Positions 301 through 24,550 of a DNA stretch of 24,846 nucleotides are shown in pieces. This DNA comes from a virus. The notes beneath the pieces were generated by a model that ran no database searches, was not told where the DNA came from, and was given only the letters and a program-made list of their open reading frames with translations. Every line of letters starts with the position of its first letter. Position 1 is the stretch's first letter. Made by a program: the position numbers and the translations under genes. The stretch is taken from the IMG/VR virus record IMGVR_UViG_3300046163_000023, positions 1-24,846 of that record; one strand, 5' to 3'.

Positions 301-328
301 TAAAACTTTTGCCAATTCCGTTGCAACA

Positions 329-342
329 TATATTTAATTATA
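329..342 (+). promoter_or_regulatory. Late-promoter-like TATATTTAAT box before head genes
   Basis: TATATTTAATTATA lies about 40 bases before the scaffold-like gene. The TATATTTAAT core is shared with the boxes at 2991, 5237, 12673 and 20396, each before a structural gene. It resembles the T4 late promoter TATAAATA in being a lone -10-type element, since no -33 TTTG was seen at the usual spacing. This copy is the most divergent after the core. Confidence 0.55.
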
Positions 343-361
343 TAGGAAATGGTTCCTATAT
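340..361 (+). promoter_or_regulatory. 9-bp perfect hairpin in the head-operon leader
   Basis: ATATAGGAA (340-348) and TTCCTATAT (353-361) are perfect inverted repeats around the tetraloop ATGG. The hairpin directly follows the TATATTTAAT box, so in the transcript it would lie at or near the 5' end of the scaffold and capsid mRNA. It could act as a stabilising 5' stem-loop. As DNA, it could be an operator for a dimeric repressor. Confidence 0.6.
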
Positions 362-2990: not shown

Positions 2991-3006
2991 TTATATTTAA
3001 TAGTAT
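2991..3006 (+). promoter_or_regulatory. Late-promoter-like box in a 36-base divergent gap
   Basis: TTATATTTAATAGTAT matches the core of the boxes at 5237, 12673 and 20396. Here it sits 18 bases from the start codon at 3025, not directly against it. This argues that the motif is a transcription signal and not simply a translation leader. The gap also holds the leader of the leftward gene starting at 2988. Confidence 0.6.
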
Positions 3007-3024: not shown

Positions 3025-3390
3025 ATGACGCTGTACGTTGATACACCTATACAAACAATACACGTAAATCTACCTAATTTAGATGCAGGTGGATGGGTAT
3101 TTGATTTGACTAGCCAATACTCACATGAGACACAGGAATGTCCTGCAACGCTCATATCTACGAATGATAGATATAGTACATTAACTGTACAATTTCCTGC
3201 TGGGTTTGAAGATGAGCACAAGAATGGTATTTACTATTACTCTTTACGAGATGGCGATCTAGAACCCATAACATATGGATTGGTTAAAATAATAACACAA
3301 CCAGGAGGTGATATAGGTACTACTACATTTAACGCTGGAGCAGAAACAGAGGAAAGAGTAGCAGATGTATTTTATAGACCAAATTACTAA
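3025..3390 (+). CDS. Small structural protein, beta-rich
   Basis: This 121-residue protein precedes the portal gene by eight bases. It is composed of beta-forming segments, with NGIYYYSLRD (about 70-79) and ITYGLVKIITQPGG (about 85-98) the clearest. This pattern recalls small Ig-like or BppU-N-like virion proteins that sit before the portal in Bacteroidota phages. It carries no enzymatic motif. It begins a transcription unit (box at 2991) with portal and connector, so a role in the head-tail interface or in decorating the head is likely. The exact function is unknown. Confidence 0.5.
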   Translation: MTLYVDTPIQTIHVNLPNLDAGGWVFDLTSQYSHETQECPATLISTNDRYSTLTVQFPAGFEDEHKNGIYYYSLRDGDLEPITYGLVKIITQPGGDIGTTTFNAGAETEERVADVFYRPNY

Positions 3391-5175: not shown

Positions 5176-5236
5176 AGCTACTGAAGGGAATATAAAAAAA
5201 TTGAAATATCTTCTTGCTCGTCAGAAAGATAAATAA

Positions 5237-5252
5237 TTATATTTAATAATAT
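5237..5252 (+). promoter_or_regulatory. Late-promoter-like box abutting a start codon
   Basis: Bases 5235-5254 read AATTATATTTAATAATATGG, where ATGG is the start of the 5251 gene. The same 20 bases (A/G at one place) occur at 12671 and 20394, each ending in the start codon. If transcription starts just after the box, the message would have almost no leader. Confidence 0.65.
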
Positions 5253-5688
5253 GGTAAATGTACAACAAGAATATGTCGAGTGTGCTTCAGGTGGACTAGT
5301 AACAGAAACTGTAAATGGTAACTGGTTACAAGCATATTGTGAATTTCTAGGTATTACAGAACCAAGTAACTCTAGTTGGTTACAGGCTTTGTGTGAACAC
5401 TTTGGCATTACTCAACCACTTTATGGTAGTTGGACAATAGCTTTAGCTAACTATTATGGTATAACACAACCAGGAGAATATGGTACTTGGTGGAATGCTA
5501 TTCAAGATACAGTATGTACTACACCACCAGTAACTGGATGTGAATGGGGAAGTGCTCAAGCAACATTTGGTCAAGACTCTAGAATTTGGTCTTCGACTTC
5601 ACCATGTACAATACCACCAACTAATGAAAATTGGGAGGTAGTTACCAGAAACTGGGAAGTAGAACCAGATAACTGGGAAGCAATATAA
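5251..5688 (+). CDS. Trp-repeat virion-associated protein
   Basis: This 145-residue protein has no enzymatic motif. Residues 22-90 are four tandem repeats of about 18 residues of the form GNWLQAYCEFLGITEP, with Trp at 25, 43, 61 and 80 and a GIT(E/Q)P end in the first three; the fourth is degraded (VCTTPP). Each repeat looks like a short helix and turn, so the block may form a small solenoid. The C-terminal 20 residues carry NWE three times at exact seven-residue spacing (Trp 128, 135, 142). The gene starts directly on a TATATTTAAT box and precedes the two fibre genes, so it may be a small fibre-base or head-associated protein. The repeat style is known from Bacteroidota phages; the function is not. 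Confidence 0.55.
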   Translation: MVNVQQEYVECASGGLVTETVNGNWLQAYCEFLGITEPSNSSWLQALCEHFGITQPLYGSWTIALANYYGITQPGEYGTWWNAIQDTVCTTPPVTGCEWGSAQATFGQDSRIWSSTSPCTIPPTNENWEVVTRNWEVEPDNWEAI

Positions 5689-8102: not shown

Positions 8103-8168
8103 ATGGCAATTAAATATAAAAATACGAATTATGAAACGACAATTTTCGAAAGGCTTTATAGCTATTGA
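8103..8168 (+). CDS. Possible 21-residue leader peptide
   Basis: An ATG at 8103 opens a 21-codon frame (MAIKYKNTNYETTIFERLYS plus Y) that overlaps the start of the initiator gene in another frame. It follows an A-rich leader (AAAGAACAAACAAAATGG), a better Bacteroidota start context than that of many genes here, and it lies close to the expected transcript 5' end. It could be a translated upstream frame that tunes initiator synthesis. It could equally be chance in an AT-rich region. Confidence 0.25.
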   Translation: MAIKYKNTNYETTIFERLYSY

Positions 8169-8646
8169 TCAGAGATTATACGACTCTGATTTAGACATTT
8201 ACCACATTAACATTATTTCTTGGATTCTCTCGTATCAAGTACAAGAGCAACCTTTCTTTATGAGTAAAGCAGCACTTGCTGATAAATTCAAGTGCGCTAA
8301 AAGAACTATATACAGAAGATTCGAATATCTTGAGTCATATGGTATCCTAGTTAGAGGTGAAAAATACAAGAAAATGTACAAATATCAGGTTAATATTCAT
8401 AGACTCAATAGGTACCTGTCAGGCACCTATCTTGAAAAACAGGTGCCAGAGAGTCACTCATCTTCTAAAACAGGTGCCTCAGAGTCACCCTATAATACTA
8501 GTACTAATAAAACTAGTTCTAATAAAACTAGTTTTAGAGATGAAGATGATTTTAAATCATCATCTTCATCTAAACCCAAAGCTAAACCTAAAGTGGACGT
8601 TAACAGTCCAGAATTCCATAAATTTCTAAATGATTTAGATATTTAG
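8131..8646 (+). CDS. Winged-helix replication initiator-like protein
   Basis: This 171-residue protein is probably the phage DNA-replication initiator. Residues about 20-95 form a winged helix: IIDW-type opening here ISWILSYQ (about 29-36), FFMSKAALADKFKCAKRTIYRRFEYLESYGIL (about 42-73, helix-turn-helix) and a wing RGEKYKKMYKYQVN. The remainder is low-complexity (three NKTSS-like five-residue repeats, a Ser run, a Lys/Pro stretch) and ends with the short acidic helix HKFLNDLDI, which could contact a host helicase or loader. The middle of the gene carries four AGGTRCC boxes, a tandem 15-bp AT-rich repeat and a large inverted repeat, as in the lambda O gene with its internal origin. It heads the operon. 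A plain transcription regulator is the alternative. Confidence 0.65.
   Translation: MKRQFSKGFIAIDQRLYDSDLDIYHINIISWILSYQVQEQPFFMSKAALADKFKCAKRTIYRRFEYLESYGILVRGEKYKKMYKYQVNIHRLNRYLSGTYLEKQVPESHSSSKTGASESPYNTSTNKTSSNKTSFRDEDDFKSSSSSKPKAKPKVDVNSPEFHKFLNDLDI
8504..8533 (+). repeat. Tandem 15-bp AT-rich repeat
   Basis: Two perfect adjacent copies of CTAATAAAACTAGTT lie here, with a partial copy at 8489-8503 matching at 11 of 15 bases. In frame they encode five-residue repeats (NTSTN, KTSSN, KTSF). Position and composition suit a DNA-unwinding element. Confidence 0.85.
8539..8570. repeat. 12-bp perfect inverted repeat in coding DNA
   Basis: GATGAAGATGAT (8539-8550) and ATCATCTTCATC (8559-8570) are separated by TTTAAATC. 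In the protein this is the EDDFKSSSSS region, so codon choice gives a strong hairpin in a low-complexity segment. Confidence 0.85.
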
Positions 8647-8706
8647 GGCTAAAAGAAACAAAATAAACAAGATACATATAATAACTAAATTAAACAATTA
8701 AACATT

Positions 8707-8850
8707 ATGATACCAAAAGGAAGAACAAGGTTAACTACCCAAGAAAGACAAAGAATACTAAAGTTACGTTTAGATGGCTTTAGTCTACAGCAAATAGCTG
8801 AACAAACAAACAGATCGATAACTTCAGTTAAACGTGTAGTTTACGCATAA
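8707..8850 (+). CDS. Small helix-turn-helix protein
   Basis: This 47-residue protein has the start MIPKGRTRLTTQERQRILKL. Residues about 11-45 read as a helix-turn-helix of the Hin/resolvase or sigma region 4 kind: a first helix QERQRILKLRLDG, then FSLQQIAEQTNRSITSVKRVV with the two DNA-binding helices separated by the turn after QT. It has no catalytic domain and so is a stand-alone DNA-binding peptide. It lies 60 bases after the initiator gene and 19 before the next one, and is probably co-transcribed. A regulator of this operon is a reasonable guess. Confidence 0.65.
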   Translation: MIPKGRTRLTTQERQRILKLRLDGFSLQQIAEQTNRSITSVKRVVYA

Positions 8851-8869
8851 CTAAAAAAAACAATTCAAA

Positions 8870-9217
8870 ATGGCAAACAAGATATTTGATAAAAATTATT
8901 CAAACCAGAGTTTAACTATACCTACATCAATATGGAATGATACTAAAATCCATGGTATAGCTAAAATTATTTTAACTCTAATTAAAGCATTTACCAATCA
9001 AGGTAGTAAAACATGTTATGCTTTAACGTTACAAACTGCAAGAATGTGTCATACACATGAAAAGGATATTAAATACAATATGCAGAAGTTACATGAAGCT
9101 GGACACATTAAACTGTTTAAAGATCCAGATTCGCCTACTGGTTGGTCAATCGAGTATACATATAAAGATATTAAACCATCAGCACCAGACTCATCTGGTA
9201 CGTCAGGATTATTCTAG
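8870..9217 (+). CDS. Winged-helix DNA-binding protein
   Basis: This 115-residue protein has a pattern like that of the 8131 product: a strand near SLTIPTSIWND (about 14-24), a helix GIAKIILTLIKAFTNQ (about 29-44), ALTLQTARMCHTHEKDIKYNMQKLHEAGHIKL as the helix-turn-helix and following helix (about 51-82), and a wing with SPTGWSIEYTYK. The C-terminus is short and disordered (APDSSGTSG). No nuclease or ATPase motif is present. It may be a second replication-organising protein or a helicase-loader-like factor. I cannot tell it from a transcription regulator. Confidence 0.5.
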   Translation: MANKIFDKNYSNQSLTIPTSIWNDTKIHGIAKIILTLIKAFTNQGSKTCYALTLQTARMCHTHEKDIKYNMQKLHEAGHIKLFKDPDSPTGWSIEYTYKDIKPSAPDSSGTSGLF

Positions 9218-9228
9218 ATATATACACT

Positions 9229-9717
9229 ATGAACAAACCAGCACCATTACGAGTTAAAGTACCCTACTGGGCAAAAGATATTGAAGATCAAGGTATACTT
9301 TGTTTAGTAGCCTTTATGTATAAAATATCAGAAAAGTATGGTTATGATACCTATACTATAACTAAAAAAGACGTCAACATGATGGTTGGTACCAGAGTTG
9401 GCAAGACATTAAAAGAATTACATGATAGAGCACCTATACTCAAGTTTTGGTTAAACCTACAATGGACTACATTACATTTTTTACAAGTAAACCTAAAGGT
9501 ATACAGACGTAATTGGAATGAAGAAAACAAAAGTTCAGAGTGGGTTACTATTGAAGATGAAAGAACCATTAGAGTATGGTGTTATATTTTAGGTGCATGG
9601 AGGCATCATCTAATAACAGATGATCCTTTTAAATCATCCATAAAAGCAGCAATGCATAATAATGACCAAAAGTTATTTCAATACTGCGATTATGATGCCA
9701 CTGGCAGAAAAGGTTAA
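9229..9717 (+). CDS. Unknown protein of the replication block
   Basis: This 162-residue protein is not recognised. It begins MNKPAPLRVKVPYWAKD and has a helix EDQGILCLVAFMYKISEKYGYD (about 18-39). ITKKDVNMMVGTRVGKTLKELHDRAPIL (about 44-71) could be a third helix-turn-helix or a winged domain. The rest is rich in Trp and basic residues (VYRRNWNEENKSSEW, VWCYILGAWRHHL), which may bind nucleic acid. It starts 11 bases after the previous gene, and its TAA overlaps the next ATG by one base (TAATG), so translation is probably coupled. Confidence 0.45.
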   Translation: MNKPAPLRVKVPYWAKDIEDQGILCLVAFMYKISEKYGYDTYTITKKDVNMMVGTRVGKTLKELHDRAPILKFWLNLQWTTLHFLQVNLKVYRRNWNEENKSSEWVTIEDERTIRVWCYILGAWRHHLITDDPFKSSIKAAMHNNDQKLFQYCDYDATGRKG

Positions 9718-9959
9718 TGAAGAAGAAACGACAGTATACCAAAGTACTAGCACTCTACTTTGGAGATGATGAACAGCTTCGAGCTGATTATCGTGACCTA
9801 ATGCTTGAAAGGTATTTAGATGAGACTAATGATGACCTATGGGAAGCCCTAGGTCTTCTGCGTTGGAGGCTGCAGCTTGCAGAAAAGCAAGAGCAGTTTG
9901 AAGAGTGCGCAATAATAAAAGATATTTTAGAAGAGTTTGAACACATTCCTAGAGACTAA
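9717..9959 (+). CDS. Small protein with a UVR-motif-like C-terminus
   Basis: This 80-residue, highly charged protein starts in a TAATG overlap with the previous gene. Residues about 50-75 (RWRLQLAEKQEQFEECAIIKDILEEFE) resemble the UVR helical hairpin found in UvrB, UvrC and McsA-type proteins, which mediates protein-protein contact. The N-terminal half (LALYFGDDEQLRADYRDLMLERYLD) is predicted helical. It may be a small adaptor. The similarity is by eye and could be simply a charged helical pair. Confidence 0.4.
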   Translation: MKKKRQYTKVLALYFGDDEQLRADYRDLMLERYLDETNDDLWEALGLLRWRLQLAEKQEQFEECAIIKDILEEFEHIPRD

Positions 9960-10494
9960 TTATGAAGAGATAATGTTAATGTCAAAGAAGATCTGTAAAT
10001 CAAATGCAGGTTGGGAAGATGTAGCGCATTTCTGTATTATTAAATTTACTGAACATGAAAGAGCAGAAGAACTAATTGGATTGGGTCAAGCTATGAAGTT
10101 TCTTTCTGGTATGATCTATCGTAGCTTCTGGTCTAACACTAGCCAATACTATACATTATATCATCAAAAAGGCAAGTTCTCACCAGTGAGCACCATATAT
10201 GACGAGGCAATGCCTGAAGCCCAAGAGTATGATTATGAAGAAGACCTAACAATAGAAGCCATACTTGGTATCATAGAGGATATGAAACACACTGAAGGTG
10301 AAGGTGGTAACAGAGATAAAAAGCTTTGGGAAATAGCAACCTATCTAGAACAGTGGGTTCAAACACCTAATTATTCAGAATTGAGTAGGGTCTCAAAGAT
10401 ACCAAGAACTACTATATCACATGGTGTAGAAGAGGCTATTCAATATATACGACAACAACTAAAACAAAACAATATAAATTATGGAGATAATTGA
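9937..10494 (+). CDS. Sigma-factor-like protein (candidate late sigma)
   Basis: This protein is up to 185 residues from a TTG at 9937; ATG at 9973 or 9979 would give about 173 or 171. The first part (NYEEIMLMSKKICKSNAGWEDVAHFCIIKFTEHE, then FLSGMIYRSFWSNTSQYYTLYH, about 8-90) has the helix pattern of sigma region 2. After an acidic linker (YDEAMPEAQEYDYEEDLT), the C-terminal part (PNYSELSRVSKIPRTTISHGVEEAIQYIRQQL, about 144-176) is a helix-turn-helix resembling region 4. Small, split, divergent sigma proteins of this type include T4 gp55, which reads a bare -10-type late box. The TATATTTAAT boxes here are similar bare boxes. A DNA-binding protein unrelated to transcription is possible. The gene overlaps both neighbours. 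Confidence 0.55.
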   Translation: MNTFLETNYEEIMLMSKKICKSNAGWEDVAHFCIIKFTEHERAEELIGLGQAMKFLSGMIYRSFWSNTSQYYTLYHQKGKFSPVSTIYDEAMPEAQEYDYEEDLTIEAILGIIEDMKHTEGEGGNRDKKLWEIATYLEQWVQTPNYSELSRVSKIPRTTISHGVEEAIQYIRQQLKQNNINYGDN

Positions 10495-10708
10495 AATACT
10501 AGGTATGGCAGCATTTGGCCATTTAGCAGCTGATTTCTTGAGCCAGTTTGATAGACTACCAGACAAACCACTAAAGTGTAATCAATGCCTCACCTTTTGG
10601 TTGAGTATTGGCCCATTCATTTTAGAACATGGCTGGTTGGGTTTACCAATGGCAGGTGTAGCAGCTATCGTATCAGAATTAATATATAAAGCCTTGATTA
10701 GATTATGA
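10481..10708 (+). CDS. Small membrane protein with CxxC
   Basis: This 75-residue protein probably lies in the inner membrane. It has a first hydrophobic segment (IIEILGMAAFGHLAADFL, about 3-20), a short polar loop LPDKPLKCNQCLTFW with a CxxC pair (about 26-40), a second hydrophobic segment (LSIGPFILEHGWLGLPMAGVAAIVSELI, about 41-68) and a basic end. The KPLKCxxCLTFW motif is seen in small membrane proteins of phages and bacteria. It overlaps the previous gene by 14 bases. The position among replication genes does not support a simple holin role, but that remains possible. Confidence 0.5.
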   Translation: MEIIEILGMAAFGHLAADFLSQFDRLPDKPLKCNQCLTFWLSIGPFILEHGWLGLPMAGVAAIVSELIYKALIRL

Positions 10709-10938
10709 AAATAAAAGAACTCAAGCCACACCAAATGGCGTGGATTCAAGAGAATGAGATTATATTTAGAATCTCTTTACGTTTAACACAAGAAAAACTC
10801 GTGTATCTGTTTAACATCTACAACTCTATTACTGGAGAAAACAAACCTGTTACTAGTTGTGGTAGGTGTGTAGAAGGGGTTAAAAAACAGGTATGGGGTC
10901 AATTCCAAAAACAACAAAACCAAGATGAAACAGTTTAA
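10705..10938 (+). CDS. Small Cys-motif protein
   Basis: This 77-residue protein starts in an ATGA overlap with the membrane protein. It has a helical first half (KELKPHQMAWIQENEIIFRISLRLTQEKLVYLFNIYNSITG) and then KPVTSCGRCVEGVKKQVWGQF, with one CxxC (about residues 52-55). This arrangement recurs in small Bacteroidota phage proteins of unknown role. With only one CxxC in the chain, any zinc site would need a dimer or extra ligands. Its C-terminus overlaps the next small gene. Confidence 0.45.
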   Translation: MKIKELKPHQMAWIQENEIIFRISLRLTQEKLVYLFNIYNSITGENKPVTSCGRCVEGVKKQVWGQFQKQQNQDETV

Positions 10939-11089
10939 CATTTATCGTACCAAAGGGGGTAGACTCTCACTCAAACCAAATGGTGAACCAGTCTATGTAA
11001 TTAGAGCCAAAACCCAAGCTATGGCCAAAGAGGTGCTCGCGCACCTCAAACAACTTGAAAAAAACAGACAAGACAATGAGCAGATTTAA
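10925..11089 (+). CDS. 54-residue basic protein
   Basis: This short frame, MKQFNIYRTKGGRLSLKPNG to its TAA at 11087-11089, starts inside the end of the previous gene and overlaps the small terminase gene by 14 bases. It closes an otherwise empty gap, has a protein-like composition (a basic beta start, then the helix AKTQAMAKEVLAHLKQLEKN) and so is probably real. A 7-bp inverted repeat with a TCGC loop (GAGGTGC 11030-11036, GCACCTC 11041-11047) lies in it. The function is unknown. Confidence 0.55.
   Translation: MKQFNIYRTKGGRLSLKPNGEPVYVIRAKTQAMAKEVLAHLKQLEKNRQDNEQI
11030..11047. repeat. Inverted repeat upstream of the small terminase
   Basis: GAGGTGC and GCACCTC surround TCGC, 29 bases before the terminase small-subunit ATG. 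The AGGTGC half-sites resemble the AGGTGCC boxes in the initiator gene, so it may be a binding site for the initiator or the small terminase. A coincidence in coding DNA is possible. Confidence 0.4.
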
Positions 11090-11429
11090 AGGAGGAGATG
11101 AAAACATCAACCGTAATGGTAGACCTAAAGGTAGTAAAAACAAAGCTACTAAACATATTAGAGAAGCCTATCAAAAACTAACAGAAGACAATCTAGATAA
11201 CATGTCAATCTGGTTAGCACAGATAGCTGCAGAAGATCCAGCAAAAGCCATGGATACAATGATTAGGTTATCAGAGTATATTCTACCAAAACTAGCTAGA
11301 ACTGAAATGACAGGTCAAGATGGTGATGATCTATTCAAGAACATTAGATTTGAATTTGGACCTGGTGTTAATTCAGAAGACAGAGATCAAAGCATAGACG
11401 AAGACTTCGATATTAACTCTATTATTTAA
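11076..11429 (+). CDS. Terminase small subunit
   Basis: This is a 117-residue protein from the ATG at 11076. A longer frame from a TTG at 11055 exists, but the ATG is a better start and keeps only a short overlap with the previous gene. The N-terminus reads MSRFKGGDENINRNGRPKGS, a GRPKGSKNK element found at the start of many small terminase and DUF5681-like proteins, probably DNA-contacting. It is followed by helices IREAYQKLTEDNLDNMSIWLAQIAAED and KAMDTMIRLSEYILPKLARTEM (about 33-88) and an acidic tail. Its TAA overlaps the next ATG by one base (TAATG), coupling it to the large subunit. It would recognise the packaging site and load the large subunit. Confidence 0.75.
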   Translation: MSRFKGGDENINRNGRPKGSKNKATKHIREAYQKLTEDNLDNMSIWLAQIAAEDPAKAMDTMIRLSEYILPKLARTEMTGQDGDDLFKNIRFEFGPGVNSEDRDQSIDEDFDINSII

Positions 11430-12655
11430 TGCAGTACACTGGGTTTACACCACATCCCAAGCAAAGGCTGATGGTCCAAACCATAATCCAGTCTGAGGCC
11501 AAATACCATGTAGCATGTGTTGGCCGTCAGTTTGGTAAATCTTTAATGGCTATTAATCTCAGTCTATACTGGATGATTAATGATGGGCCATGTAAAGTCT
11601 TGTGGGTAGCGCCAGTCTATTCGATGACATCAAAAGTACAGAAAGAAATCATGCAGGCCATCGGCGCATCAGGCATTGTTAAATCTTGTAACTATTCAGA
11701 AAACAATATAACTCTAAAGAATGGTTCAGAAATTATATTCAGATCAGCAGAGAAGTATGATAACATTCGTGGTTTAACAATGGATTATGGTATACTAGAT
11801 GAGGCTGCCTTTATGAAAGACGAAGCATGGAAAGAGGCTATACGTCCAGTATTTATGGTTCGCGGCAAAAAGGTTTGTATAGTTAGCACGCCTAAAGGCA
11901 AGAACTGGTTCTATGACATCTTCCAGTTAGCCCAGTCAGCAGACTATGGACAATACGCATCATATACTGGTAGTTCATACGATACACCCTACATCTCACG
12001 AGAAGAGATCGAGGATGCTAAACGTACACTACCACCAAATGTATTCGATCAAGAGTATCTAGCCAAATTTATAGACAGTGGTGGTGAGGTCTTCTCAAAC
12101 CTAGATAAAAACCTATTCGAACGATACCCAAGCCCCCGAGGTAGAGTGTTCTGTGGTATTGACCTAGGTAAACAAGAAGACTTCACCGTTGCCACTTTTA
12201 TGGACTCAGAGGGTAATGTGATTGACATCTATCGTGCCAATGCCCAAGAGTGGACCACAATGGTCAATGAGATAATGCAAAAGGTTAGGAAGTATAACGC
12301 CACAGTAATGGTTGAGGTCAACTCTATTGGTGATGTTATCTTTGAGCAAATCAAGAAGCAGTGGCAAGATACACACCCATTTGTAACTACTAACAAGTCA
12401 AAGAATGAAATCATAGAAGGACTCATACTTGATATGAATGAGACCAACATTATGATACCAAGTAAAGAGCTGTTTCCGTGGCTTCTGAGCGAACTTGAAG
12501 TATTTACGTATGAATACAATCCAAAAACTAGATCGATCAGGTATGGACACCCCACAGGTCTCCATGATGATACTGTTATTTCGCTAGCGATAGTTAACTA
12601 TAATCGTAAACAAAGAAGACACGTGGGCCAATACGCCTACATCGGGCGCAGATAA
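11429..12655 (+). CDS. Terminase large subunit
   Basis: This 408-residue ATP-driven DNA packaging motor and headful or site-specific nuclease docks on the portal. The N-terminal ATPase has Walker A GRQFGKS (about 32-38) and Walker B YGILDEAAF with Asp124 and Glu125. STPKGKNWF (about 153-161) is the coupling motif. The RNase-H-like nuclease follows, with the first acid in CGIDLGKQEDFT (Asp about 245), the second in VEVNSIGD (Glu about 296) and the last in LHDDTVISLAIV (Asp about 380-381). All key residues are present, so the enzyme should be active. The length is normal for the compact Bacteroidota-phage type. Confidence 0.93.
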   Translation: MQYTGFTPHPKQRLMVQTIIQSEAKYHVACVGRQFGKSLMAINLSLYWMINDGPCKVLWVAPVYSMTSKVQKEIMQAIGASGIVKSCNYSENNITLKNGSEIIFRSAEKYDNIRGLTMDYGILDEAAFMKDEAWKEAIRPVFMVRGKKVCIVSTPKGKNWFYDIFQLAQSADYGQYASYTGSSYDTPYISREEIEDAKRTLPPNVFDQEYLAKFIDSGGEVFSNLDKNLFERYPSPRGRVFCGIDLGKQEDFTVATFMDSEGNVIDIYRANAQEWTTMVNEIMQKVRKYNATVMVEVNSIGDVIFEQIKKQWQDTHPFVTTNKSKNEIIEGLILDMNETNIMIPSKELFPWLLSELEVFTYEYNPKTRSIRYGHPTGLHDDTVISLAIVNYNRKQRRHVGQYAYIGRR

Positions 12656-12672
12656 TTCAGGTTTAAATCAAA

Positions 12673-12688
12673 TTATATTTAATAGTAT
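12673..12688 (+). promoter_or_regulatory. Late-promoter-like box before the tail genes
   Basis: Bases 12671-12690 match those at 5235-5254 and 20394-20413 except for one A/G, and end in the ATGG of the 12687 gene. It marks the border between the terminase gene and the tail module. Confidence 0.65.
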
Positions 12689-13349
12689 GGAGATAATAGT
12701 GAATGGCATAGAATACCAGTTTGATGACAGATTGACCATAGATCAATGGAAGTCTGTGATGCAATATGATTTTACCATTGCAGCCAATTGGCCAACTATT
12801 ATAGAACTGATAACTGGTGTACCTAAATCTATTCTAGTCCGAGCTAACAAGGACACACTAGAACTTGGTGCTGCCATTATAGTTAATATGTGTAATCAGA
12901 GACGTCAGGTCAAGATAACTCCAATGGATCAGTTAACCTTTGGTGATTTTGTAGATCTAGACAGTATGATAGCAATGGGTACTGAGAAACACCTAGACAC
13001 AATGGCTGAACTACTCACATCAACCAAATGGGCTGACGAAGCACTATGGGCAGTAGAACAGTGGACCAACTACAGAATGTGGATCTTTAGACAATACGCA
13101 GGCTTGTTTGGTTTAGATGACGTGGATGAACCAACTGAAGACGATGCGGCGCCAATCAATAAAGATGCAGTAGCTAGAAACTGGTATAAAATCATAGTAG
13201 ATCTAGCTAATGATGACATACTAAAACTGGATCTGATAACAGAGCAGCCACTGATTAAAACACTCAACTTTATGGCACTCAGAAAAGAACGTCAGTTAGA
13301 AGAGAACATGAAGATAATAGAACAAAACGCAAAATTACAAAAGAGATAA
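12687..13349 (+). CDS. Possible tail assembly chaperone
   Basis: This 220-residue protein starts directly on a TATATTTAAT box. The N-terminus (MEIIVNGIEYQFDDRLTIDQ, W21) is a short beta hairpin followed by helices. QLTFGDFVDLDSMIA (about 83-97) is a motif common in phage tail assembly and head-tail proteins, and the rest is helical with an acidic linker (DDVDEPTEDDAAP, about 141-153). Tail chaperones usually lie just before the tape measure, but here the tape measure is 7 kb away. I saw no slippery frameshift site of the gpG/GT kind at the end of the gene. An alternative is another tail morphogenesis factor. Confidence 0.4.
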   Translation: MEIIVNGIEYQFDDRLTIDQWKSVMQYDFTIAANWPTIIELITGVPKSILVRANKDTLELGAAIIVNMCNQRRQVKITPMDQLTFGDFVDLDSMIAMGTEKHLDTMAELLTSTKWADEALWAVEQWTNYRMWIFRQYAGLFGLDDVDEPTEDDAAPINKDAVARNWYKIIVDLANDDILKLDLITEQPLIKTLNFMALRKERQLEENMKIIEQNAKLQKR

Positions 13350-13350
13350 T

Positions 13351-13812
13351 ATGTTTACATACAAAGAAATAGTAGACCTTTTCAAGGCAGCAGCGTTGAA
13401 CCACCTAATGATTCAAGACTTTGGTTATGGTGCACTCTCAGACATCAAGACTCGCAATGAGTCCAATGAAGGTGATGAAGAGGTCAACTATCCATATGCT
13501 TTCCTAAACCCTACTGTACACAATAGAAATCAGAGTACAGTAACCTATCAGTTTAACCTGATCATGATGGACATGGCTCGCGAAGAAGAAGGCACCAAGT
13601 ATGATAACTTTCTACAGATACAATCAGACTGTCAACAATACATTGATGATATGATAGCTAATCTGTGGAACACTACTACTAAACCAGATATTCAGTTAAC
13701 TGTAACCTATACACCATTTGTAGAGAGATTCCAAGATGAGGTGGCAGGTATGACAGCCCAATTGAGTATTGTAGTACCAATCCAAATAAATGACTGTATA
13801 GCACCCTACTAA
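13351..13812 (+). CDS. Probable tail terminator / tail completion protein
   Basis: This 153-residue protein lies between the chaperone candidate and an HK97 gp10-like gene. It has the alpha/beta pattern of tail terminators of the lambda gpU type: an N-terminal helix (EIVDLFKAAALNHLMIQDFG), YPYAFLNP (about 48-55), strands TVTYQFNLIMMDMA, a helix NFLQIQSDCQQYIDDMIANLW and the final strands TPFVERFQDEVAGMTAQLSIVVPIQINDC. Such proteins cap the tail tube and bind the connector. Its TAA overlaps the next ATG by one base. Confidence 0.5.
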   Translation: MFTYKEIVDLFKAAALNHLMIQDFGYGALSDIKTRNESNEGDEEVNYPYAFLNPTVHNRNQSTVTYQFNLIMMDMAREEEGTKYDNFLQIQSDCQQYIDDMIANLWNTTTKPDIQLTVTYTPFVERFQDEVAGMTAQLSIVVPIQINDCIAPY

Positions 13813-20378: not shown

Positions 20379-20395
20379 TTCAACAGATAGATAAA

Positions 20396-20411
20396 TTATA
20401 TTTAATAATAT
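20396..20411 (+). promoter_or_regulatory. Late-promoter-like box before the tape measure gene
   Basis: TTATATTTAATAATAT precedes the ATGG at 20410 in the same register as at 5251. It starts the unit of tape measure, protease and membrane protein. Confidence 0.65.
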
Positions 20412-22339: not shown

Positions 22340-23950
22340 ATGAATAAAATTGTAGAATTATTAATAGATTGGGATAACTTGGACATTGAAGATCTAGGTG
22401 TTTCTATCATGAGTTTAGTAGAAGAACCAGCAATAGGTATAGCATGGCAAAAGTTTGCAGCACAGAAGTTTGTTTCTGTGAATCCTGGTGAGTCTGAAGA
22501 GGACTATATAGCTAGATGTATTCCAGTACTAATCGAAGAAGGCTTTGACCAAGATCAAGCTGCAGCCATTTGTTATGGCTCATATGAAGAGGCATTCCTA
22601 CCAGAAAATCCATGTCAATCAGGTTATGTTGCATATGGTACTAAAATCAAAGATGGTAGAGAAGTACCTAATTGTGTTCCTGTTACAGCTGAAATGGAAT
22701 TTGAATCATACACTGATTATCCAGAAGCAGCAAGAAACAATGCAAAGAGAGCCATTGAATGGAAAGAAGAGAATGGTAGTGATTGCGGCACCCAGGTTGG
22801 CTGGACAAGAGCAAGACAGTTAGCAGATGGTAAACCCATCTCAGAAGAGACCATAGCACGTATGGCTTCATTTGCTAGACATGAACAACATAAAGATGTA
22901 CCATATTCAGAAGGCTGTGGAGGCATTATGTGGGATGCTTGGGGTGGTTCAGCTGGTGTTAACTGGGCACAATCTAAATTAACAGAGATTAGAGCTAGTA
23001 GATTCTCAGGATATACTGATGAACATCTAGATAAAATAGAAGCTCTAGTAAAGCAATCAGATTTTGGTCGTGTATTCGATCCTAAAACCACATCATATGT
23101 AGATATGTCAAAGGACCAGTTTGCTACTGAAGAAGAGGTAATCCAAGGTATTGGTGCTTTAAATGACTTGTTGAGATCAGATACTGAAGATGATAACTCA
23201 AGATTTCTATTTAGATATGATCAAGGCAGATCATTACCTAGTGGGAGTGAATCTAGACGCTTCTGTCGAATTCTAATGAGTGCTAACAAGTATTTTACTC
23301 TAGAAGAAATTGATCAGATGTCAACAGAACCATTACAACCAGATATGGGTCCAGGTGGTACTAACACCTATGACATTCTAAAATATAAAGGCGGTGTTAA
23401 TTGTCGCCATCGATGGTTACAATATCGTCAATACGATGCTAATGGTAGAACAGTAGTTGCAGAATTAGGTCCAGCTACCATAAACAGAGAAGCTGGTCAA
23501 ATTGCATCTAGTTCTAATAATTGGTGGAGAATGTCTAAATCAAATCAATGGCACTTCTCAGAAGATGAGCAAATGGTAGTTACAGGTCCAGCAATGGTTC
23601 CTAATATGATGATACCAAGATATGACAAAGATGGTAATATGTTTCATGTTTACTTCTCACAAGACACAGTTAAAAAGATAGCTAGAAAGTTTTTAGAAGA
23701 AAACAAGCAACACAATACAGATATTAATCATGATGATGCAGTAACTACAGAGAACACACTGCTTGAGTCCTGGATTGTCGAAGATCCTGACATGGATAAA
23801 TCTAAAACATTAGGTTTTGACGTTCCTAAATCTACATGGATGGTATCATACAAAATTAACAACCAAGAAACTTGGGATCAAATCAAAGAGGGTAAACTCA
23901 ATGGTTTTAGTATCACAGGTCAATTCATAGAATCTAATACTAAATCATGA
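22340..23950 (+). CDS. Multidomain XkdF-type prohead protease
   Basis: This 536-residue protein is a fusion. Residues about 50-80 (EEDYIARCIPVLIEEGF, DQAAAICYGSYEE) and about 91-114 (CQSGYVAYGTKIKDGREVPN) are small Cys-containing modules. Residues about 125-215 (YPEAARNNAKRAIEWKEENG, RARQLADGKPISEETIARMA, GIMWDAWGGSAGVNWA) match a module common in phage proteases. Residues about 265-375 (RFLFRYDQG, RRFCRILMSANKYFTLEEI, YKGGVNCRHRWLQY) resemble the C-terminal part of Mu-F-type minor head proteins. The C-terminal about 410-536 is the XkdF-like serine protease: NHDDAVTTENTLLESW (His about 464) and GFSITG (Ser about 524). It probably cleaves scaffold and capsid during maturation. On the circular map it lies about 1.3 kb upstream of the scaffold. 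Confidence 0.7.
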   Translation: MNKIVELLIDWDNLDIEDLGVSIMSLVEEPAIGIAWQKFAAQKFVSVNPGESEEDYIARCIPVLIEEGFDQDQAAAICYGSYEEAFLPENPCQSGYVAYGTKIKDGREVPNCVPVTAEMEFESYTDYPEAARNNAKRAIEWKEENGSDCGTQVGWTRARQLADGKPISEETIARMASFARHEQHKDVPYSEGCGGIMWDAWGGSAGVNWAQSKLTEIRASRFSGYTDEHLDKIEALVKQSDFGRVFDPKTTSYVDMSKDQFATEEEVIQGIGALNDLLRSDTEDDNSRFLFRYDQGRSLPSGSESRRFCRILMSANKYFTLEEIDQMSTEPLQPDMGPGGTNTYDILKYKGGVNCRHRWLQYRQYDANGRTVVAELGPATINREAGQIASSSNNWWRMSKSNQWHFSEDEQMVVTGPAMVPNMMIPRYDKDGNMFHVYFSQDTVKKIARKFLEENKQHNTDINHDDAVTTENTLLESWIVEDPDMDKSKTLGFDVPKSTWMVSYKINNQETWDQIKEGKLNGFSITGQFIESNTKS

Positions 23951-24134: not shown

Positions 24135-24464
24135 TTATTTAAATAGTTGACTATAACAGCCATTAGATTTAGATTCTCTAATAAACCCAGTGTAACCTAA
24201 CCAATGACAAGTCCAAGCAAAGTCAGTTTGATAGAACTCAGTTGCGATCCATTTACTCAATACCTCTACGTCGTCTGATAACGTAATTGATTTTGCAAAA
24301 TAGTAAAGCTTGTCAAAGTCCCATCCTTTAGGATCTTCGTGCATCAACATGTTTTTTAGTTGAGCGCCTTCCATACCTAGATCATAGTTGTACATTCCTT
24401 TTAGTTTAGTCCACGTTAATTGTGATACTTGTTTCATTTTTGGCATTTTCATTTGATTTTTCAT
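24135..24464 (-). CDS. Unknown leftward protein
   Basis: This 109-residue protein is not recognised. It begins with a basic Met/Lys-rich stretch (MKNQMKMPKMKQVSQL), then helical segments (WTKLKGMYNYDLGMEGAQLKNMLM, about 18-41; FDKLYYFAKSITLSDDVEVLSKWIATEFYQ with a break). The C-terminal 40 residues are rich in Trp, Cys and Tyr (DFAWTCHWLGYTGFIRESKS). No signal peptide or enzymatic motif is visible. It has its own copy of the 35-bp promoter-like repeat (24499-24533) 34 bases upstream. A role in early host takeover or in lysis would fit its position, but neither is shown. Confidence 0.5.
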   Translation of the reverse strand: MKNQMKMPKMKQVSQLTWTKLKGMYNYDLGMEGAQLKNMLMHEDPKGWDFDKLYYFAKSITLSDDVEVLSKWIATEFYQTDFAWTCHWLGYTGFIRESKSNGCYSQLFK

Positions 24465-24498
24465 TTTGTTTTTGTTTTACTTTAATTAATTATTACTC

Positions 24499-24550
24499 TA
24501 CTAATATACCACAAATATTTGACATAAAAAAATATTTGAGCACTTTTTTT
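24499..24550 (-). promoter_or_regulatory. Leftward promoter-like repeat, copy 2
   Basis: This is the second copy of the element at 249-300: 35 identical bases (24499-24533) plus the A/T run at the same offset (24542-24550). It lies 34 bases from the start of the leftward gene at 24464 and just after the stop of the metallopeptidase gene (24555). The differing eight bases between the two conserved parts are presumably spacer. Confidence 0.7.

Follow-up and report, generated by a model that had tools for sequence, protein, structure and literature searches.

A putative family of ECF-type late sigma factors with a candidate bipartite promoter code in viruses that likely infect Flavobacteriaceae

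The gp55 protein of phage T4, a sigma-like factor for host RNA polymerase, is not known to have a region 4, nor are T4 late promoters known to have a -35 element. The late sigma factor of Salmonella phage 7-11, SaPh711_gp47, has region 4 homology, recognizes bipartite late promoters and works with the host core polymerase; its distant relative in phage phiEco32, gp36 (phi32_gp36), has no region 4 homology and uses single-element promoters (PMC8948821). For late sigma factors or late promoters of Bacteroidota phages, flavophages included, and for gp79, our literature search found no direct precedent. The DNA analysed here (the window) comes from a small marine phage; its record is linear and 24,846 bases long, has a G+C content of 38% and no end repeats, and its relatives are contigs of up to about 24-26 kb. 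A host in the Flavobacteriaceae is likely, because two different 24 kb relatives (L198 and L199) are binned in one uncultured Flavobacteriaceae metagenome-assembled genome, FRAM18_bin221, and the nearest cultured portal proteins are those of Nonlabens phages.

Overall, we believe with good confidence that the window carries the gene for an ECF-type (group 4) late sigma factor of the phage, one that would bind host core polymerase and the promoter box and so direct late transcription, from predicted start sites, at five bipartite promoters of virion operons. Among known systems, phage 7-11 appears to be the best mechanistic match, and the window pair seems to obey the same rule, by which region 4 goes with a bipartite promoter. 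In both phages the sigma factor, a predicted one in the window, has region 4 homology, and in both, bipartite sites lie ahead of late genes. At the same time, the two proteins belong to different sequence families and the hosts to different phyla; the promoter is GTAAtg-16-aCTA in 7-11 and TTCA-N14-TATATTT[A/C] in the window, where the predicted +1 falls beside the ATG; and the function that we infer for the window protein has been demonstrated experimentally in 7-11. The phiEco32 and T4 proteins resemble it as presumptive fellow sigma-like factors for host RNA polymerase, but the window pair has both a region 4 and an upstream element.

The open reading frame that the initial annotation placed at 9937-10494 on the + strand is intact and encodes 185 aa. 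The gene and its domains are as follows.

9937..10494, + strand: predicted phage sigma factor gene, 185 aa, TTG start, stop included (open reading frame, 166-locus family, phrog_1740 in 27/44 members, model and fold search)
9937..10170, + strand: predicted sigma region 2, residues 1-78, with helices at 2-19, 26-39, 52-65 and 70-76 (AlphaFold model, 5uxx_C, SigW region 2 profile alignment)
10171..10233, + strand: predicted acidic disordered linker, residues 79-99 (pLDDT <50 at 81-93)
10234..10470, + strand: predicted sigma region 4 with helix-turn-helix, residues 100-178 (2h27_D superposition)

The choice among three start codons (TTG 9937, ATG 9973 or 9979), previously left unsettled, now falls on the first. 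TTG 9937 is likely the start and the two ATG codons internal, because the codon at 9937 or its equivalent is TTG in all nine close sequences (window counted), with an in-frame stop 2-5 codons 5' of it in each; because L009 has ATT in place of ATG 9973 (codon 13); and because the residues before codons 13 and 15 are conserved in the close sequences, M1, F4, L5, N8, Y9, E11 and I12 being invariant. The first twelve residues fall within the first helix of region 2 in the AlphaFold model, and the 5' part of the reading frame overlaps the end (9959) of the preceding gene. Across the wider family (n=76), the start position holds TTG in 39 cases, ATG in 20 and other codons in 17, so some relatives start elsewhere. 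The protein had also been called very short; its size is as described, but 185 aa is normal for an ECF sigma factor.

Searching IMG/VR with the protein, alignments and the terminase large subunit (TerL) as queries yielded 195 sequences, window included. A homologue is encoded in 166 of them, always in single copy and on the TerL strand, and this family of 166 loci is previously unannotated. The window protein by itself has no significant sigma match in Pfam, PHROG or PDB sequence searches, and one Pfam match, HU-CCDC81_euk_2, which overlaps the helix-turn-helix and lies below its cut-off, we take as spurious; the link to sigma factors thus comes from homologues and fold, not from single-sequence matches. 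In profile searches, phrog_1740 (RNA polymerase sigma factor) has matches in 27 of 44 diverse members, the best at 3.8e-9, and those in L060 (2-171) and L052 (2-168) span the full length. Pfam Sigma70_r4 and Sigma70_r2 each match six of the 44 homologues (best E 2e-4 and 1e-3, respectively), and a profile built from all 44 has the ECF factor SigW (5wuq) as its top PDB match (E 4.6e-4), regions 2 and 4 aligning in the same order in both. A tblastn search of 50,697 phage records with the window protein and three divergent homologues gave nothing useful, and the family profile found no homologue in Bacteroides phage BC679P1.

The same searches raise the question of a late regulator of another kind. 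Sixteen of the 44 members match phrog_79 (Q-like; best 1.3e-5) and 13 match Pfam Phage_antitermQ (PF06530; best 0.0018), as might be expected of a Q-like or ArpU/RinA-like protein acting by antitermination or at one late promoter beside the terminase genes. Regulators of the Q/ArpU/RinA kind sit just 5' of terminase genes in other phages, and the sigma gene occupies a similar position; the Pfam and PHROG matches listed for the window protein and the 44 members name no ArpU or RinA family. However, the Q-like matches listed are weak and confined to the C-terminal part (61-174, 120-191), while matches to the sigma family can run end to end, and the five promoter-like sites across the genome described below would be unexpected for antitermination from one promoter. 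We consider a regulator of this kind very unlikely.

A sigma identity is also favored by the predicted structure. The AlphaFold model (mean pLDDT 85, pTM 0.44) has two confident domains joined by the acidic disordered linker. Region 2 matches 5uxx_C in the fold search (Z 8.0, 3.0 A over 72 residues), and region 4 matches 2h27_D, E. coli sigma-E region 4 bound to -35 DNA (Z 8.9, 2.0 A over 68 of 69 residues). By title, the first 48 of the 50 listed matches among solved structures are sigma factors or sigma chains of transcription complexes, with ECF types first. In Foldseek, the flexible joint between the two domains keeps the E-values against the PDB weak (best 0.05); a search of a viral structure library gives seven matches with E <1e-3, of which one carries the name sigma-70 region 2. 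Z scores near 8-9 are not decisive alone for helical domains, and what decides sigma identity is the joint agreement of sequence profile, fold and domain order. The layout fits group 4, with no regions 1.1 and 3 and with a linker of ~20 residues between regions 2 and 4, and region 2 is conserved whole, a region-2.2-like segment included. By fold, domain order and profile, we file the window protein under the sigma-70 family, group 4 (ECF-type), as a factor that would bind polymerase. The region-2-like N-terminus, acidic linker and region-4-like helix-turn-helix first read from the sequence are borne out by profile, model and fold search, and the suggested structure prediction against sigma regions 2 and 4 recovered a sigma fold, not an unrelated one. 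Host ECF sigma factors (SigW, sigma-E, Mtb SigL) share with the window protein the predicted fold of both domains and their order; the window protein differs in being phage-borne and only ~11-16% identical to them. No anti-sigma gene was recognised beside it.

The candidate partner of this protein is a repeated DNA signal. Exact TATATTTAAT boxes occur six times in the window against 0.3 expected, a count reached in 0/100 shuffles. Since the one-mismatch count is not significant (10 against 6.6 expected), only exact or bipartite matches were used. The box is the downstream half of a longer signal, whose second element, C-A, sits 16 nt upstream, and the full motif reads T..TTCA-N14-TATATTTAATAnTAT. 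We aligned 27 non-redundant exact sites from the window and its relatives, picked regardless of upstream sequence: C stands at -16 in 27/27 and A at -15 in 25/27, positions -21, -18 and -17 are T-rich, conservation reaches 21 nt upstream of the box, and AnTATR is conserved at +10 to +15, even at sites without a start codon there. A bipartite matrix trained on relatives' sites only (those with the C), the window left out, recovers exactly five window sites at 29-33 bits, the next best scoring 2.3 and the best over 20 random sequences 9.4 bits. Among 179 unique TATATTT[AC] boxes near ORF starts, CA lies exactly 16 nt upstream of 142, compared with 3-23 at each other distance from 6 to 25 nt; the boxes were chosen by sequence and ORF position, not by CA, which makes the spacing test fair. 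These 179 lie on the sigma (sense) strand, compared with eight antisense. One exact box in the window, on the minus strand at 8109, has no second element and scores -3.9 bits, and we take it as chance.

The five sites, and the recognisable genes that mark their surroundings, are listed here in order along the window.

308..344, + strand: candidate late promoter 1, CA 313-314, box 329-338, predicted +1 341, gene start 383; 29.4 bits
2971..3007, + strand: candidate late promoter 2, CA 2976-2977, box 2992-3001, predicted +1 3004, gene start 3025; 32.9 bits
3399..4571, + strand: portal, first recognisable gene behind site 2 (phrog_11226, E 1.3e-45)
5217..5253, + strand: candidate late promoter 3, CA 5222-5223, box 5238-5247, predicted +1 5250, ATG 5251; 30.2 bits
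11429..12655, + strand: TerL, constant downstream neighbour of the sigma gene (phrog_2, E 6.8e-47, and synteny)
12653..12689, + strand: candidate late promoter 4, CA 12658-12659, box 12674-12683, predicted +1 12686, ATG 12687; 32.4 bits
20376..20412, + strand: candidate late promoter 5, CA 20381-20382, box 20397-20406, predicted +1 20409, ATG 20410; 30.0 bits
20410..22338, + strand: tape measure protein, behind site 5 (phrog_3336, E 3.4e-9)

All five lie upstream of structural operons. Site 1 would serve the gene at 383 (family unknown) and then a probable capsid gene, site 2 a small gene at 3025 and then the portal, and site 4 the neck/tail operon after TerL, which has a neck protein at 13812. 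None lies inside the sigma-TerL block: the stretch 8131-12655, with genes resembling replication-initiation factors or helicase loaders, the sigma gene and TerL, has 0 sites on the + strand, and the earlier reading that this block lacks boxes is confirmed by the absence of any + strand box between 5248 and 12673. Several relatives (e.g. L012, L019, L021) have one site between sigma and TerL, so the end of the block that holds TerL can belong to the late class.

Other features of the region deserve mention in their own right. A small ORF with HTH-like sequence (MIPKGRTRLTTQERQRILKLRLDGFSLQQIAEQTNRSITSVKRVVYA) lies at 8711-8866, inside the replication block. The genes at both window ends (minus strand, 221-300 and 24464-24545) have an identical upstream stretch of ~34 bp, TTTTTTTATGTCAAATATTTGTGGTATATTAGTA, which is probably an early promoter present in duplicate, its -7 element resembling that of the host (TATATTAG). 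The protein encoded at 22340-23950 has separate parts that match portal, head maturation protease and other profiles, which suggests a fused head protein of several domains, encoded behind the tape measure gene. In a divergent clade of the sigma family (L086-L107), another signal, CAACTA-N8..20-ACAATAG, occurs 3' of TerL, with 20 sense and 0 antisense copies, mostly ahead of the first gene after TerL.

The host -7 element offers a way to place the transcription starts. In F. johnsoniae this element, TAnnTTTG, spans -12 to -5 and has its G at -5 (PMC6847099), and that of F. psychrophilum has the same positions (PMC9723704). When the phage TATATTT[A/C] is laid on it, +1 is box base 12. The ATG begins at box base 11-18 in ~60% of bipartite sites and at 27-78 in most others, and the predicted +1 is one base ahead of the ATG at three of the five window sites. 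If this alignment holds, the late mRNAs should be nearly leaderless, which would be unusual, as 87% of predicted F. johnsoniae transcripts have a leader >10 nt (PMC6847099). An SD-like motif is absent upstream of 25/26 starts.

Such proximity to the ATG might instead mean that the box is a translation signal unconnected with the sigma-like protein. Most boxes do begin 11-18 nt ahead of an ATG, and Bacteroidota lack SD sequences (PMC6847099). Against this, a second class of sites, 2/5 in the window (54 and 33 nt), carries the same bipartite element 27-78 nt before the ATG, many genes inside operons have no box, and conservation extends 21 nt upstream of the box. We find a translation signal scarcely credible. 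The resemblance to the host element invites another explanation, that the protein is a DNA-binding activator bound at the CA element while the host primary sigma factor reads the box as its -7 element. TATATTT equals the first seven bases of host TAnnTTTG (PMC6847099), and region 4 alone could bind the upstream site. The host G at -5, however, is nearly invariant (PMC6847099), and the family's boxes have mainly A or C there; region 2 is conserved whole, down to the region-2.2-like segment; and the upstream element keeps one exact distance, in the style of a sigma promoter. We regard an activator as unlikely.

A late sigma factor remains our preferred reading, and its general course can be outlined. 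The sigma factor would be made ahead of the structural genes, from the block shared by the replication genes, sigma and TerL, and would replace the host sigma factor on host core RNA polymerase. The polymerase so equipped would go to the five promoters ahead of the virion operons, with region 4 recognising the upstream TTCA/CCAAC element and region 2 the TATATTT box. This box may be viewed as the host -7 element with its G replaced, by A here and by C in a sister clade, and this replacement, together with a shorter spacing, would separate late from host promoters. Transcription would then start ~12 nt after the first box base, for most operons at the ATG or a few bases ahead of it. The initial annotation had already cast the protein as partner of the boxes, as gp55 is for T4 late promoters. 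We retain the pairing because of the fixed bipartite form, the place and strand of the sites, their conservation in relatives, and variants that follow the sigma clade. Two points need correcting: the box makes up one half of the promoter, and T4 gp55 is a poor analogue, since region 4 and an upstream element are both present.

The variants themselves are informative. Boxes are of type TATATTTA.. in the window's clade and TATATTTCT.. in the sister clade, and the variant base is uniform in 47 of the 50 genomes with at least two boxes; the three mixed genomes (L165, L042, L009) are possibly recombinants in transition between codes. The box base changes five times on the sigma tree and eight times on the TerL tree, against a shuffled mean of 27, and four of the eight TerL-tree changes are forced by well supported branches; the variants thus track the sigma tree somewhat better than that of the neighbouring TerL. 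A boxes are paired with T73/K78 in the region 2.4 helix, C boxes in most cases with K73/S78. L036, whose sigma lies inside the C clade (100/100), nonetheless has T73/K78, and its three boxes all belong to the A type. Exceptions are L174, L176 and L177 (C boxes with T73/K78), L168 and L170 (A boxes with K73) and likewise L165. We dropped residues 73 and 78 as named specificity determinants, as other columns part the clades equally well; no residue can be named because the sigma tree shows only 3-5 changes of box state. More tentatively, and leaning somewhat against it ourselves, we put forward that sigma and boxes might be matched parts of one specificity module, which drifts between two or more codes (TATATTTA, TATATTTC) and passes from phage to phage independently of the packaging genes; the region 2.4 helix would set the code (T73/K78 versus K73/S78), and late mRNAs would be essentially leaderless.

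A cultured parallel exists in Nonlabens phage P12024S (JQ823122, L196), in which a Sigma-70 region 2 protein, P12024S_33, is encoded four genes before TerL. Upstream of its late genes stands AAAACAAA-N13/14-CGTTAATA, found five times on the + strand and 0 times on the other strand, in every case 12 nt ahead of an annotated ATG.

P12024S, 167, 3019, 5400, 23949, 25189 and 26790: late-promoter-like signal, adjoining a late-gene ATG

The case for this box rests on its bipartite form and constant ATG distance, because one-mismatch CGTTAATATA alone is only modestly enriched (11 against 5.7). Its sequence differs from that of the window's box, and the CGT box of P12024S resembles the ECF-type motif of F. 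psychrophilum (PMC9723704). The sigma family profile did not detect P12024S_33, which is tied to the window protein only through phrog_1740 (5.8e-6). The sigma-box arrangement therefore recurs with another sigma factor and another box.

Regardless of how the code is set, the locus points to a new family of phage-encoded late sigma factors, of a kind already known, with a candidate bipartite promoter code. Bacteroidota phages are common marine viruses whose late transcription is little described, and for them the analysis supplies a named protein together with its predicted promoter code and start sites, as well as two natural variants of the code and one exception. This exception, L036, with its C-clade sigma, T73/K78 and A boxes, is a natural test of the region 2.4 code, and P12024S, in culture and with a parallel sigma-box pair, makes the idea testable now. 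As an annotation rule, the bipartite motif would mark late operons in 24-26 kb flavophage contigs, while the code variation and the predicted near-leaderless starts are the points of specialist interest.
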